DNA of 64,000 nt from Anaeromyxobacter sp. Fw109-5 (GTDB lineage: Bacteria; Myxococcota; Myxococcia; Myxococcales; Anaeromyxobacteraceae). Both the position numbers and the translations under genes were made by a program. The DNA is taken from the NCBI RefSeq assembly GCF_000017505.1, contig NC_009675.1, positions 3,419,001 to 3,483,000 on the forward strand, given 5' to 3'. This document shows, piece after piece, positions 46,236 to 53,261 of the stretch. Numbering within the stretch: position 1 is the first letter of the stretch; each line of letters begins with the position of its first letter. The notes beneath the pieces are model-generated. The model worked only from the letters and a program-made list of their open reading frames with translations, did no database searches and was not told where the DNA came from.

Positions 46236-47507
46236 ATGCCCCTCGCCGACCACCTCCTCGCGCCTCGAGCGGTCTTCCTCGTCCCCGTCGCCCTGTCCGC
46301 CTTGCTGGCGTGTGGTGGAGGGCCCGTCTCCGGGGCGGCTGGGGAGGCGCCGCTGGGCGGGCCCGCTCCCGTGCAGTCCACCACCGTGCAGCCCACCGTC
46401 CCGGCGCAGGTGGCGGCCGGGGCCGTGACCGTGGAGCGGCTCGACGACGCCGCCGAGTGCGACGCCCTCGTGCCCGACGCCGTCCCGGAGCCGGTCACCG
46501 CGCGGCTCTCCCCTCCGGCCGGCGGCACCTGCGTCGGCGGCATCGCCGACGGAACCGGCGCGGTGGCGCTCGGCTTCCGCGACGCGGCGGGGAGTCTGTC
46601 CTGGCAGGCGACCACCGCGGACGGCCGCGCGCAGGCGACGTTCGCCGCGGAGGCGCTGGTCGCCGCGCCCGACGGCTGGCAGGGGCTCGCCGGCGGCGGC
46701 GACCTCGTGGACCACCTCGCCGTCGCGCCCGACGGGCGGGTGCGGCGCGCGTCCGCCGTCTCGCCGGACCCGGCGGAGCGCACCGGCTTCCGCTGGCGGC
46801 TCGCGCAGGATCCGTCGGGAGGCAGCGTGGTCCTGTTCCGCTCGGTGACGGTGGCGGGCAACCACTGGAACGCGCTCGACGCCTACCGCTTCGACGCGAG
46901 CGGCGCCCCGCGCTGGCCCGAGGCGGTTGCGGTCTCGTCCGATCCGGACGCGTCGGAGCCCTGGTTCATGGCGGCCGGCGTCTCCACCACGGGCGCGGCG
47001 CTCTCGCTGTTCCAGGACTCGGCCTTCGTGCGCGCGCGCTGGATCGAGCCCTCCGGCGCGGCGCGCGAAGGGACCGCCGAGCCGGAGCCGTCGACCGGCG
47101 TCGTCGGCGAGGGGCTCGCCCACGAGGTGGAGCTCGCGCCGCTGCTCGACGGCTCGCTCGCGGTCCGCTCCGACGGCGCCTGGCGCCGCCGCTACCCGCC
47201 GCTCGCGGAGCGCTCCGAGCCGCTGCCCGCCTGGCTGGCCGAGCGCTCGACCTGGAGCTTCAGGTTCACGCGCGGTAACTCGGGCTACGCGGCGCTCGAG
47301 CCCGCCGGCCGGGCGTCACCCGACTGCGCCCAGCGGATCGAGCTCCTGGCGCCCTCGGGGCGGCTCTGCGGCCGCGTGACCGTTCGTGAAGACGGTACCG
47401 GCTGCACCACCGGCGCGCTCGACCAGGGCTGGGACGGGACCGTGGTGCAGCAATCTGCCGCGGACGCCTGCACGTTCCGCTGGTGGCCGCGGCTGCTCGC
47501 CCGCTGA
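46236..47507 (+). CDS. Lipoprotein of a tandem six-cysteine pair, copy 1
   Basis: Envelope lipoprotein of 423 aa, unknown family. The signal peptide ends in ALLACGG (lipidated Cys near residue 24), followed by a Pro/Gly-rich linker and a ~370-residue domain. Six cysteines are shared with the next gene: AAECDAL, GTCVGG, SPDCAQR, GRLCGR, GTGCTTG and ADACTFR, suggesting three disulfides. GNHWNALDAYRFDASG and DSAFVRARWI are other shared blocks. The frame is open 132 bases further upstream, but the signal peptide fixes the start at the ATG 46236. Confidence 0.7.
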   Translation: MPLADHLLAPRAVFLVPVALSALLACGGGPVSGAAGEAPLGGPAPVQSTTVQPTVPAQVAAGAVTVERLDDAAECDALVPDAVPEPVTARLSPPAGGTCVGGIADGTGAVALGFRDAAGSLSWQATTADGRAQATFAAEALVAAPDGWQGLAGGGDLVDHLAVAPDGRVRRASAVSPDPAERTGFRWRLAQDPSGGSVVLFRSVTVAGNHWNALDAYRFDASGAPRWPEAVAVSSDPDASEPWFMAAGVSTTGAALSLFQDSAFVRARWIEPSGAAREGTAEPEPSTGVVGEGLAHEVELAPLLDGSLAVRSDGAWRRRYPPLAERSEPLPAWLAERSTWSFRFTRGNSGYAALEPAGRASPDCAQRIELLAPSGRLCGRVTVREDGTGCTTGALDQGWDGTVVQQSAADACTFRWWPRLLAR

Positions 47508-47577: not shown

Positions 47578-48942
47578 GTGCGGGTCTCCGTCGCCCTCCT
47601 CCTGACCGTGCTGGCCTTGGCCTTGGGCGCGTGCAACGGCGACGGGGGCTCGCCCGCGCCGCCGACGGACGGCGGGTCGGACGGTGGAGGCGGCGGGACT
47701 GGGGGCGGTGGCGGGTCCGGCGACGGAGGGGGTACCGGCGGGTCGGGCGGGGACGGGAGCGGTGGCGTGGTCCCGCCGGGCGGCGGCGGGGGCGGCGGCG
47801 GTGGGGTGGATGGCGCGTATCCGCAGAGCGCGACGGTGGCGGTGGAGCGCCTCGACGCGAGCGGCGAGTGCGACGCCCTCCTCCCCACCGCCGCGCCCTC
47901 CCCCGTGACGGTCCGCGTGGCCCCGCCGGCCGGCGCGGCCTGCGCGTTCGCGATCGCGGACGGCACCGGCGCGGTGGCCGTCGCGTTCCGCGGTGGCGGC
48001 GGCGTGACCGGCTGGCGCGCGTACGGGCCCGACGGGGCACTCCGCGAGGCGTTCGCGGCGTCCGAGCTCGTCCCGGAGCCGCGCGGCTTCCAGGGCCTGC
48101 GCGTGAGCCCCGGCCCGACCGAGTCGCAGCCGCTCGTCGAGCACGTGGCGATCGATCCGCAGGGCGCGGTCGCGAGCGCGGCGACCGTCTCGGAGGATCC
48201 CGCCTCGACGACGGGCTTCCGCTGGAGCTTCGCGCAGGACCCGCTCGGCGGCTCCGTGGTCGTCTTCCGGGGGGTGAACGTCTACGGCAACCACTGGCAC
48301 GGGCTGCGCGCCCACCGCTTCGACCCGGCCGGCGCCGCGCGCTGGCCGGAGCCGAAGACGGTGGAGTACGGGAGCGACGCCGCGGAGCCGCTCTTCCACG
48401 TGGTGGGCGTCTCGACCCGCGGCGAGGCGCTGCTCCTGTACCAGGACTCCGCCTTCCTGGTGGTGAAGTGGATCGACGCGAGCGGATCGACCTCGCTCGA
48501 AAGCGACTGGACGGAGCGGTACGACGGCGTGCTCGGCTCGCCGGCGCTGCGCTTCGACCTCGCGCTGAAGCCCCTCCTCGACGGCGGCCTCGCGCTCCGG
48601 GTGGACGGCCGCTGGCGGCGCGCGTACGAGCACCGCGCGGCGAAGAGCGGCGCGCTTCCCGCCTGGCTCGCCGCGCGCACCGCATGGACCTATCAGTTCA
48701 CGCGCGGCAACGCGGGCTACGCGGCGTTCCAGCCGCCCGGCGAGTCGTCACCGGACTGCACCCAGCGGATCGACCTCGTCTCGCCCTCGGGCCGCCTCTG
48801 TGGCCGGGTCACCCTGCGCGAGGGCGCCACCGGCTGCACCACCGGCGCGCTGGACCAGGGGTGGGACGGCACCGTCGTGCAGCAGTCCGGGCAGGACGCT
48901 TGCGCGTACCGGTGGTGGCCGCGGCTGCTCGCGGGCGGGTGA
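47578..48942 (+). CDS. Lipoprotein of a tandem six-cysteine pair, copy 2
   Basis: Envelope lipoprotein of 454 aa, paralogous to the gene ending at 47507. The GTG start at 47578 gives a lipoprotein signal (LTVLALALGAC). It is followed by a long Gly/Ser/Asp linker of about 65 residues that the first copy lacks, then a domain aligned throughout with copy 1. The same six cysteines are kept, with near-identical C-termini (TGCTTGALDQGWDGTVVQQS). The two genes are 70 bases apart, so they probably arose by local duplication and share a transcript. Confidence 0.7.
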   Translation: MRVSVALLLTVLALALGACNGDGGSPAPPTDGGSDGGGGGTGGGGGSGDGGGTGGSGGDGSGGVVPPGGGGGGGGGVDGAYPQSATVAVERLDASGECDALLPTAAPSPVTVRVAPPAGAACAFAIADGTGAVAVAFRGGGGVTGWRAYGPDGALREAFAASELVPEPRGFQGLRVSPGPTESQPLVEHVAIDPQGAVASAATVSEDPASTTGFRWSFAQDPLGGSVVVFRGVNVYGNHWHGLRAHRFDPAGAARWPEPKTVEYGSDAAEPLFHVVGVSTRGEALLLYQDSAFLVVKWIDASGSTSLESDWTERYDGVLGSPALRFDLALKPLLDGGLALRVDGRWRRAYEHRAAKSGALPAWLAARTAWTYQFTRGNAGYAAFQPPGESSPDCTQRIDLVSPSGRLCGRVTLREGATGCTTGALDQGWDGTVVQQSGQDACAYRWWPRLLAGG

Positions 48943-49090: not shown

Positions 49091-50094
49091 TTACTGACGC
49101 GCCTCCTCTGTGGGTGAAGCCGGCTGCGGCTTGTTGATCCAGACCTCGCACGGCACCGCGCCCGCCGACGGCGCGCCGGCGGGAAACCGCTCAGGCCGGG
49201 CGGCGAAGGCGGCCGCGAGGACCACGTCGCGCGCCTGGAGCCGGGCGGCCGCGAGGCCGTGGTGGACGTCGTGCGGCGTCACCAGCCCGAGCCCGCCGTG
49301 GCGGTGCTCGGTGTTGTACCAACCGAAGAAGTCGGCGCAGTGCGCGCGCCCGTCCTCGATGGCGCCGAAGCGTTCCGGGAAGTCGGGCCGGTACTTCATC
49401 GTCTTGAACTGCGACTCGGAGAACGGGTTGTCGTTCGAGACGTGCGGCCGCGAGTGGCTCTTCGTGACGCCCAGGTCGGCGAGCATCAGCGCCACCGGCT
49501 TCGAGGTCATCGAGGTTCCGCGGTCGGCGTGGACGGTGAGCTGGTCGCGCTGGATGCCTTGGCGTTCGCAGGTTTCGCGGATGAGCCGCTCGGCGAGCAC
49601 CGCCGTCTCCCGGTGCGCGAGCATCCAGCCGACCACGTACCGGCTGTAAACGTCGAGGATCACATACAGATAGAAGTAGGTCCACTTCTGCGGGCCGAGC
49701 AGCTCGTGATGTCCCAGCTCCAGAGCTGGTTCGGCGCGGTGGCGAGTAGCTCGGGCGCCTTGTACTTCGGGTGCCGCAGCTGGTTCCGCCGCTCGCGGAC
49801 CTCCGCGTTCTCAGCGAGGACGCGGTACATCGTGCGCTCCGAGCAGAGGTACCGGCCCTCGTCGAGCAGCGTGGCGTAGACCTGGGCAGGCGCGAGCTCC
49901 GCAAAGCGAGGCTCGTGAAGCACGTCGAGCACGGCACGGTGCTCGTCGGCGCCAAGCGCGCGGTGGTAGGTCCGCGTCCGCCGCGGCGGGCGCGGCTTGA
50001 GCGCGCGGTAGTAGGTGGCCTTCGGCAGCCCCAGCGCGGCGCACGACGCCGCGATGCCAAGCCGGGCGCCGAGATCGGTGACCGCCTGCATCAC
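49091..50094 (-). pseudogene. IS3-family transposase OrfB, broken by a one-base deletion
   Basis: Catalytic subunit of the IS. The first part (to about 49704) ends at the first DDE Asp in LWSWDITS. The second part (49091 to ~49703) holds VYSRYVVGWM, the second Asp in VHADRGTSMTS and the Glu in NPFSESQFKTMKYRPDF. Between them the frame jumps: restoring one base in ATCACG-AGCTGCTC (plus-strand near 49704) reconnects WDIT to LLGPQKWTYFYLY, the sequence expected in intact relatives. So the gene is a frameshift pseudogene, or the read has an error there. Its GTG overlaps the orfA stop. Confidence 0.85.
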
Positions 50095-50456
50095 TTCTCC
50101 TCGTCGGGCTTCGGCAGTTGGATCCCCAGCAGCTCCGAGACTTTTTTTTGGAGTTCGACGAGACCCTCCGCGCGCTCTGCGCGCCGCGTGGCCCGCGCGA
50201 CCTCGCGCTCGAGCTCGGCGACCTTCCGCTCCAGCGGGTGCGGGACCTTCGCGGCCGGTCCGCGCTTCCTGGGCGCGAGCCCGGCCAGCGCACCGCTGTC
50301 ACGGGCCCGCCGCCACTCCACGAGGTGCGACGAGTACAGGCCCTCGCGACGGAGCAGGGCGCCGATCTCGCCCGTCTTCGTGCATGCCTCGGCCTCGGCG
50401 AGGACCTTGCGCTTGTACTCGGCGGTAAACTGCCGCCTGCGCGCCTTCGCGGTCAC
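50091..50456 (-). CDS. IS3-family transposase OrfA
   Basis: DNA-binding subunit of the IS, 121 aa from the GTG at 50456, behind CAGGAG; the frame is open to 50531. It has a helix-turn-helix (RRQFTAEYKRKVLAEAEACTKTGEIGALLRREGL) and a C-terminal Arg/Glu leucine-zipper-like helix (ERKVAELEREVARATRRAERAEGL). An A8 run at 50142-50149 (minus strand) lies before the stop, where a -1 slip would pass into the OrfB frame. It appears intact, but its OrfB partner is broken. Confidence 0.85.
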   Translation of the reverse strand: MTAKARRRQFTAEYKRKVLAEAEACTKTGEIGALLRREGLYSSHLVEWRRARDSGALAGLAPRKRGPAAKVPHPLERKVAELEREVARATRRAERAEGLVELQKKVSELLGIQLPKPDEEK

Positions 50457-50497
50457 CTCGGTCTCCTGCCCAACCAACCCGATCACTGCGCTGCTGC

Positions 50498-52252
50498 TCA
50501 CCGTGAAGTCCAAGCTCGCCCTTCTACACAAAACTCCGTGGGGGTCGCTGTCTCACTCACGTTGGCAGAGAGGGCCGGGGGTCCCCTCCAGACCCTCCCA
50601 CCCAGCCGCCAGGTGAGCCCGTCCGGCGCCCGTCCGAATACGCGAAGGAACCCACCGTGGATGCACCTCAGGTGATGGAAGGCGCACAGGCCGACCTGGT
50701 TCTCAGGGTCGTCGCTGCCGCCGTGTGAGCGGAAGTCGATGTGGTGCGAGTGGGCGGCGCGGTGGCTGCACCCAGGCACCTGGCACCAGCCCTGATCCCG
50801 CTCGCGGACCTTCTTCGAACGGCTCTTCGAGCGTCTTTCCGCGCCTCTCCACGACGCGAGGAAATGGAACGCGAGGACCGCGAGGCACGTTCCGGTCGAG
50901 AGCACGCGCCCGAATCGTCCCCGGACGGCCTCGATGGCGGCCGCGAGGAGCACCGCCACGCGGCGAGGCAGCGGGACGAGGAGCTTCTGGCGCGCACGCA
51001 TCTGCCGCTCGCGCTCCCCTTCAACCTCGCGCTTCAGCGTGATGCAGGTCGCCCCGAGCGCCCGAGGGAGCCACGACGCCATGTCGGTCTCCGGCAGCCG
51101 CGCCAGGACCCGCAGCTTCTCGTACGAGACGCCCTGCCGCCGCGCCTCCTGGAGCGGGGGCGACTCCCATAGCCGCTTCTCGAGCGCGACGCGCTGCTCC
51201 ACCGCGCGCGCGGGGAGCCCCAGCCGCTCCTCGACGTACTGGCGAAAGCCGCCGTACCCCAGGAGCACGTGCATCCCGCTCCGCTTCACCGCGAGCCCGC
51301 AGAATCCGATGAGCCGATCCCACCCCACTCGCAGGCGGGCCAGCGCGCGGAGCCGCTCGTCGATCTCCTGCGCCGTCGACGCCTCGTCGAACGACACCTG
51401 CGGCGCGGCGAGCTCCGGAACCGGGGGGAGCTCCGCCCATCGATCGGTGGCGGCCCCGACCGCGGCGCGCCGCGCAGGGGGGCCGAGGCCGCACGCGCGA
51501 AACCCGGGCCCGAGGGGGCGCGTCCCGTCGGAGTCGCCGTCGGTCGAGAACTCGCCGAGGTACTCCTGCGCGAGCGCCTCCAGCTGCTCGGTCCGGGTCG
51601 AGCCGGGCAGCTGCTCGCGGGCGGCCGCGAGCGCCTCGTCGACGACGAGCCGCTCGTCCGGCGGCAGATGCGTGCGCAGCTGGACCCACTCGTCCTCGTC
51701 GTCGCCTGCCGGAGCCCGCGCGGCCCGGACCGCACCCTCCAGCTCCCGGACGGTCTGCACGCTGGCGCGCTCGACCCATAGCGCCTCGGCCTCGCCCACC
51801 GCGACCGGCAGCACCGTCTCCGCCGCACGGATCCGGACGCGCCCGGACCGCAGCGCGTCGCGGAGGAGGGGACGGGCGCGCAGCCCGGCCCCGAGCCGGG
51901 CGAGGCTCTCGGCGGAGCGCTTCCCGAGGTCGAGGACCTCGCGGGCGTAGTCGTCGAGGTGATAGCCCAGCTCCGCGAGCCGGTCCCCGTGTCTGAGCGC
52001 GTCGAGGCCCTCGCCGATCGCGAGATCCAGGGCGCCACGGGCCCGCGCAGCCCAGGCGAGGAGCTGCTCGCACGCGTCCGCCTCCGGCTCTCCGCCGCGG
52101 AACCACGTCTCGAGCTCGGCCATGGTGAGCGGCGGGAGGTCGAGCCGCGGCGCCGCGTAGCCGGCCAGCGAGGCGTCGGGCGTCACCGCATCCGTCTCGA
52201 GCGTGGGGAGCGCGGCCTCCATCGCGTGCAGGATGGCATGGCGCTCTGACAC
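50498..52252 (-). CDS. DUF222-type HNH endonuclease, C-terminus altered by IS
   Basis: Protein of 584 aa of the family with a long helical N-terminal region (DUF222-like, here ~50-400) and a C-terminal HNH nuclease domain. The metal site is in CQVPGCSHRAAHSHHIDFRSHGGSDDPENQVGLCAFHHLRCIHGG, with Cys-Cys, HH, Asn and HxxxxxH. The last ~24 residues (from LSANVSETATPTE) are encoded by the end of the IS3 element, so the native C-terminus has been replaced. The start is a GTG at 52252 with no clear ribosome-binding site; an in-frame ATG at 52222 is an alternative. Role unknown, possibly DNA modification or mobility. Confidence 0.8.
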   Translation of the reverse strand: MSERHAILHAMEAALPTLETDAVTPDASLAGYAAPRLDLPPLTMAELETWFRGGEPEADACEQLLAWAARARGALDLAIGEGLDALRHGDRLAELGYHLDDYAREVLDLGKRSAESLARLGAGLRARPLLRDALRSGRVRIRAAETVLPVAVGEAEALWVERASVQTVRELEGAVRAARAPAGDDEDEWVQLRTHLPPDERLVVDEALAAAREQLPGSTRTEQLEALAQEYLGEFSTDGDSDGTRPLGPGFRACGLGPPARRAAVGAATDRWAELPPVPELAAPQVSFDEASTAQEIDERLRALARLRVGWDRLIGFCGLAVKRSGMHVLLGYGGFRQYVEERLGLPARAVEQRVALEKRLWESPPLQEARRQGVSYEKLRVLARLPETDMASWLPRALGATCITLKREVEGERERQMRARQKLLVPLPRRVAVLLAAAIEAVRGRFGRVLSTGTCLAVLAFHFLASWRGAERRSKSRSKKVRERDQGWCQVPGCSHRAAHSHHIDFRSHGGSDDPENQVGLCAFHHLRCIHGGFLRVFGRAPDGLTWRLGGRVWRGPPALSANVSETATPTEFCVEGRAWTSR

Positions 52253-52635: not shown

Positions 52636-52785
52636 CGACTACCACACGACGCGCTCTTCGAGGCGAGGAGCGCGCTCAGGGGCCCGGCGACACGACGTCG
52701 CGCCCCGCCGCCCCGGGAACCCTTCCCCCCGCCCGCGGCTCTCACGCGGCTGCGCACGTCGTCGTTCCGCAGCCGGAGGTAACCC

Positions 52786-53214
52786 GTGGGTCATTCTCGT
52801 CTCGTCGCGGCCGCGGTGGTCGCCGCCGCCCTCCTCCCCGGTGCCGCCCTCGCCGAGGTCCGCACCGTCGGGGCGGAGGAGGTCCAGGCGCTCTCGCTCG
52901 CCTCGAGCCGCCACAAGGTGTTGATCGTGGACAGCCGCTCTGCCGAGGAGTTCGCGCAGGCGCACCTGCCCGGCGCCATCAGCATCCCCGCGGGGTGGAT
53001 GATGGCGCACCAGGGGTCGCTGCCGAAGGACCGGGCCGCGCCCATCGTCTTCTACTGCCGCGGCGCGGGTTGAACGCTGAGCCACGAGGCCGCCCGTGCG
53101 GCGGCCGAGATGGGCTACACGAATCTGCTCGTCTACCAGGGCGGGCTGCCGGACTGGCTGAGCCGCGGGCTGCCCGTGGAGCGCGGCGGCGCGCCGGCGG
53201 CGAAGCGGGGCTGA
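52786..53214 (+). CDS. Secreted rhodanese with in-frame TGA (candidate selenoprotein)
   Basis: Predicted periplasmic rhodanese-like protein of 142 codons. The GTG at 52786 follows CGGAGGTAAC. The signal peptide is LVAAAVVAAALLPGAALA. VLIVDSRSAEEFAQAHLPGAISIP and GWMMAHQG are rhodanese features. The active-site loop reads FYCRGAG-TGA-TLSHEAA: the TGA at 53071-53073 (codon 96) stands where relatives have a second Cys, five residues after catalytic-type Cys91. The frame continues as a normal domain end (GYTNLLVYQGGLPDWLSRGLPV) to a TGA at 53212. A SECIS-like hairpin follows the internal TGA. Read-through as Sec or a nonsense mutation both fit. Confidence 0.6.
53088..53106 (+). promoter_or_regulatory. 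SECIS-like hairpin after the in-frame TGA
   Basis: GGCCGCC (53088-53094) pairs perfectly with GGCGGCC (53100-53106) across the loop CGTGC. The loop starts 22 bases after the TGA and has G as its second base, which fits the general form of bacterial SECIS elements. The GC-rich background makes chance hairpins common. Confidence 0.4.
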
Positions 53215-53228
53215 GCGCGTCCCGGCCG

Positions 53229-53261
53229 CCGCTCGTGCTTCAACGGGCTCAGCACGAGCGG
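53229..53261. repeat. REP-like palindrome, copy A (possible terminator)
   Basis: CCGCTCGTGC (53229-53238) pairs with GCACGAGCGG (53252-53261) around a centre resembling GGGCTCAGCA. Related palindromes are at 56395-56427 and 60793-60825. It lies 14 bases after the rhodanese stop, between convergent genes. Confidence 0.6.

Follow-up and report, generated by a model that had tools for sequence, protein, structure and literature searches.

A predicted selenocysteine codon in the gene for an exported rhodanese-like protein of Anaeromyxobacter sp. Fw109-5

Introduction

Rhodanese-like selenoproteins are already known as a kind, and five forms of them have been listed (PMC13188914). Form 1 is defined by a PF00581 domain with the motif UxxS and has WP_010941598.1 as its reference, and TsoB is a rhodanese/DsbD fusion-like selenoprotein with the motif UxxxxU (PMC13188914). 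For the hairpins that direct selenocysteine (Sec) insertion in bacteria, the bSECIS model prescribes a loop of 3-9 nt with a G among its first two bases, a stem of 4-16 bp and a distance of 16-37 nt from the UGA (PMC13188914). In the genus considered here, a selenoproteome table of 2006 credited A. dehalogenans with 11 selenoproteins, and a rhodanese was absent from it (PMC1794560).

A preliminary description of a 64,000-nucleotide stretch of the Anaeromyxobacter sp. Fw109-5 genome (NC_009675.1, positions 3,419,001 to 3,483,000; the window) proposed that a secreted rhodanese interrupted by a single TGA is a selenoprotein. Based on the follow-up analysis presented here, we put the probability that UGA codon 96 of this exported rhodanese is decoded as selenocysteine at about 95%. 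The computed support comes from the intact reading frame, the complete Sec machinery, the conserved TGA and its exchange for Cys, selection on the SECIS hairpin and the rhodanese fold. The gene adds a member to the known group of rhodanese-like selenoproteins.

Results

A rhodanese frame that continues across a TGA

The features of the gene are collected in Table 1. Translation starts at a GTG codon at 52786, and the frame is open throughout except for the TGA at codon 96, after which 46 codons lead to a second TGA, the stop. The PF00581 match covers residues 38-126 and spans the codon-96 TGA (63 bits against a gathering threshold of 22.2, E 3.9e-17). This match and our own reading of the sequence bear out the frame, coordinates and signal-peptide-like N-terminus of the preliminary description, and its spacing of Cys91-x4-TGA is likewise right. 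A palindrome (CGCTCGTGCT...AGCACGAGCG) lies within 50 bases past the real UGA stop (window 53212-53260), and the hairpin score of this region is lower than that at the Sec UGA. A simple scan for promoters and terminators around the gene found none and is uninformative in such a GC-rich genome; PADLOC returned no match.

Table 1. Features of the predicted rhodanese-like selenoprotein gene, in window positions
Feature	Position	Strand	Basis or remark
Predicted secreted rhodanese-like selenoprotein gene	52786..53214	+	142 residues including Sec96; stop included
Shine-Dalgarno-like GGAGGT	52775..52780	+	5 nt upstream of the GTG start; sequence
Signal-peptide-like segment, residues 1-23 (...ALA/E boundary)	52786..52854	+	read from sequence
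Cys91, opens the rhodanese active-site loop	53056..53058	+	invariant in alignments
In-frame TGA, codon 96, predicted Sec	53071..53073	+	sequence, homologue conservation
SECIS hairpin GGCCGCC-CGUGC-GGCGGCC	53088..53106	+	bSECIS model and cross-gene comparison
Terminal TGA	53212..53214	+	best model hairpin beyond it scores 14.5, against 21 at the Sec UGA

Fold and active-site loop

An AlphaFold2 model built with 47 relatives has a mean pLDDT of 89.6, with the domain core at about 97, and in structural comparison every one of its top matches is a rhodanese domain (Z up to 17.2). These neighbours include the rhodanese domains of NADH-dependent persulfide reductases and of a persulfide dioxygenase-rhodanese. 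In the model Cys91 sits between strand 87-90 and helix 98-108, and Sec96 takes the Cys+5 position of the active-site loop. Due to this placement of Sec96 and the retention of Cys91, the two residues form a candidate redox pair. The preliminary description had the TGA replace the second Cys of the loop at a catalytic-type position; homologues with Cys there agree with the first part, whereas the catalytic Cys itself, Cys91, is kept. A Cdc25/Acr2-type phosphatase or arsenate reductase was considered and rejected because these have a C-x5-R loop, and Cys+6 is here Thr97, not Arg.

Among described proteins, BH2092 of Bacillus halodurans (PDB 3nhv/3o3w) shares the rhodanese fold (Z 16.7), and its C-x4-C loop, YCWGPAC, is the Cys counterpart of the C-x4-U loop; it differs in having only about 25% identity and no Sec. 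Escherichia coli PspE is likewise a single-domain periplasmic rhodanese, but the match of the window protein to its family is weak (25.8 bits against 102). Compared with the printed motifs, the window protein resembles form 1, being a rhodanese with one Sec and UTLS at 96-99, and on the strength of this motif it probably belongs to that form (UxxS). Two homologues from Geobacter MAGs (L117 and L128) show C-x4-U-x-x-S, again like form 1. The top NCBIfam match is TsoB (NF045694), with E 5.6e-18 over the rhodanese part and a Sec five residues past the first residue of the loop; however, the score is 64.3 bits against a cut-off of 805, the DsbD part is missing, and residue 91 is Cys and not Sec (C-x4-U as opposed to UxxxxU). 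NF041203 (rhodanese_LYCAU, CxU, "form 3") describes a small rhodanese of similar length with Sec after the loop Cys, but it too stays below its cut-off (44.1 bits against 115), and its spacing is C-x-U rather than C-x4-U. The same two models also lead in a scan of the 47-member family. No dedicated NCBIfam model for C-x4-U rhodaneses was found, the nearest ones being far under cut-off for the window protein, and such genes may therefore be annotated as truncated.

Conservation of the TGA and Cys/Sec exchange

The TGA is retained in the two closest orthologues (G008 and G005, 76-77% identity) and also in homologues of about 50% identity (G003 and G004). One further homologue (G015) has TGC at the equivalent codon, Cys takes the place of Sec96 in three loci (L022, L040 and L041) and, as TGY, in 36 Myxococcota genomes, and the remaining homologues have Cys in this alignment column. 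The alignment that the preliminary description had suggested thus reveals the Cys/TGA exchange, and the TGA, far from being the lone change of one strain, is conserved at the same column in independent genomes. Because identical TGAs occur in separately sequenced genomes, a sequencing error is very unlikely to lie behind it. A scan of GTDB representative genomes with the pattern VFYC-x4-TGA returned at least 115 stretches, and after removal of 9 spurious ones at least 106 credible rhodanese-like loci remained, from several phyla and with both flanks conserved.

Downstream of the TGA, the close pair shows pN of 0.05-0.06 versus pS of 0.28-0.33, a pattern which argues that the codons past the TGA are under purifying selection and that the tail is translated. 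From U+1 to U+14, the window and its two closest orthologues differ by no synonymous and one non-synonymous change; in the same comparison pS over the rest of the tail and over the mature part upstream is 0.36-0.47.

A second C-x4-TGA rhodanese is present in the same genome (L043, G000:C1:2306855-2307124). Because its N-terminus is lipobox-like (LALG/C), it is probably a lipoprotein selenoprotein.

Selenocysteine machinery

The preliminary description had proposed a search for selA, selB, selC and selD, and the complete set was found in the window's complete genome of 5,277,990 bases. The selA, selB and selD matches score 545, 325 and 397 bits, respectively, and tRNA-Sec lies above its cut-off, with an ARAGORN call of anticodon TCA. 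The selD gene (G000:C1:4028582-4029508) carries an in-frame TGA of its own near the N-terminus (GAGUACK); the selenophosphate synthetase of the strain is hence a predicted selenoprotein too, which is an independent sign that the organism decodes UGA as Sec. Across 195 Myxococcota genomes, 29 have the TGA pattern and 36 the Cys pattern. selA accompanies 28 of the 29 TGA-type genomes as against 13 of 27 Cys-only genomes (Fisher p 4e-5, with kinship ignored, so that relatedness inflates the significance), and the sole TGA-type genome without selA (G043) is 61% complete.

A SECIS hairpin under selection

The window hairpin, 21 nt past the UGA, has a 7-bp stem and a 5-nt loop (53095-53099) whose second base is G, and agrees with the bSECIS model in loop, stem, G and UGA distance; the usual N1-N2 loop pair of the model is unformed (C and C). 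Taken alone it has a z of about -1.4 and is equalled in score by 2.6% of all TGAs in the window, and an Rfam search of the whole window gave nothing above gathering thresholds. A lone hairpin of this sort is unexceptional for GC-rich DNA; what makes the case for a SECIS is the comparison of many genes.

Measured against shuffles of synonymous codons, the folding energy of about 105 Sec-type genes dips in segments that begin at the UGA or immediately downstream of it (t -8.6 and -9.4) and nowhere else, and in comparison with 30 Cys-type genes of the same pattern the dip is confined to the Sec type (p 1.2e-6); these tests, like the co-occurrence test above, count related genes as independent. 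All 120 Sec-type genes tested fit the bSECIS model, with a mean stem score of 18.35 versus 11.56 in shuffles (maximum 13.19), whereas the Cys-type genes (n=30) show no excess (9.10 versus 9.61); two Ala codons of the stem are in part fixed by the search pattern, equally so in the Cys controls. One pairing register is common to 87 of the 120 genes. Within it, pairs 17-35, 20-32, 23-29 and 24-28 pair above the expectation from column composition, and the changes at 20-32 and 24-28 include C-G to T-A, G-C or A-T. The loops across Sec-type genes are mostly GGC, GGTC, GTC or CGTGN.

Gene neighbourhood

In A. soli and in the genome of one closest orthologue (G008), the rhodanese gene lies directly 3' of a gene for a protein of about 425 aa. 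The window counterpart of the latter, at 46236-47504, has a diverged second copy in tandem behind it (47821-48939); beyond that copy lie, both on the minus strand, a pair of IS3-like transposase genes (49091-50531) and a gene that matches HNH nucleases weakly (50498-52252). Inserted and duplicated DNA of about 5 kb separates the rhodanese gene from its usual neighbour, and the gene may for this reason be poorly expressed in this strain.

Discussion

Machinery, TGA conservation, Cys/Sec exchange and SECIS selection all support the selenocysteine reading of the preliminary description. SelA, SelB, SelD and tRNA-Sec of the cell would insert Sec at UGA 96, directed by the SECIS hairpin 21 nt 3' of the codon. 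Homologues with Cys at the same column might instead suggest an ordinary Cys rhodanese in which a nonsense mutation or a sequencing error has produced a pseudogene. We regard this as scarcely credible, since genomes sequenced independently keep the TGA, at identities of 50-77% and outside this range, which in effect refutes it, and both the purifying selection past the TGA and the selection on the SECIS speak against it as well. It is also highly improbable that the TGA is a true stop or a read-through site yielding a product of 95 residues, whether or not Trp or Arg is inserted, rather than a Sec protein. Sec UGA codons commonly cause some termination, and the real stop of this gene is likewise a UGA, both of which are compatible with such a product. 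However, the genome holds the full Sec machinery, Cys and Sec exchange at position 96, the SECIS signal is restricted to TGA-type genes, and a protein cut short after codon 95 would be missing the conserved end of the rhodanese domain. Read-through was rejected on the grounds of conservation and SECIS.

As to function, we infer that the protein is most likely a redox rhodanese, reducing persulfides, polysulfides or peroxides in the periplasm by way of its Cys and Sec residues. In the mechanism that we moderately favour, Cys91 would accept sulfane sulfur or become oxidised in the periplasm, the Sec96 selenolate would attack the Cys91-bound group with departure of sulfide (or water), and the resulting Cys91-Sec96 selenenylsulfide would be reduced by a thiol system. 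The outcome would be a persulfide/polysulfide or peroxide reductase and not a plain thiosulfate:cyanide sulfurtransferase. C-x4-U rhodaneses fused to a glutathione peroxidase (GSHPx) domain occur in three loci (L075, from Planctomycetota, L133 and L147), and the same rhodanese domain is fused to AhpC/TSA in two others (L083, over cut-off, and L114, under cut-off). Together with Cys or Sec at Cys+5, the relative TsoB and the structural neighbours from persulfide reductases and a persulfide dioxygenase, these fusions favour a redox role. The main functional rival is a classical sulfurtransferase, a PspE-like thiosulfate:thiol enzyme in which Sec merely tunes the loop; the rhodanese fold, a periplasmic location as for PspE (PMC2593051) and the weak PspE family matches are in line with it. 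We nevertheless consider it rather unlikely, as the second chalcogen at Cys+5 is always Cys or Sec in the examined set, a regularity that the search pattern itself demanded, and peroxidase-domain fusions fit redox chemistry better.

For the family as a whole, we advance only tentatively the proposal that C-x4-U rhodaneses constitute a large, mainly exported and uncharacterised redox family of Myxococcota, Desulfobacterota, Nitrospirota, Planctomycetota, Rokuibacteriota and other phyla, which would reduce persulfides or peroxides through a Cys-Sec bond and either supply peroxidase domains or act jointly with them, a partnership suggested by the GPx and AhpC fusions.

In summary, Anaeromyxobacter gains a well-supported predicted selenoprotein, and C-x4-U rhodaneses prove to be common among sediment and soil bacteria. 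The Cys-Sec pair and the peroxidase fusions provide a testable hypothesis on what selenium may do in a sulfurtransferase fold.
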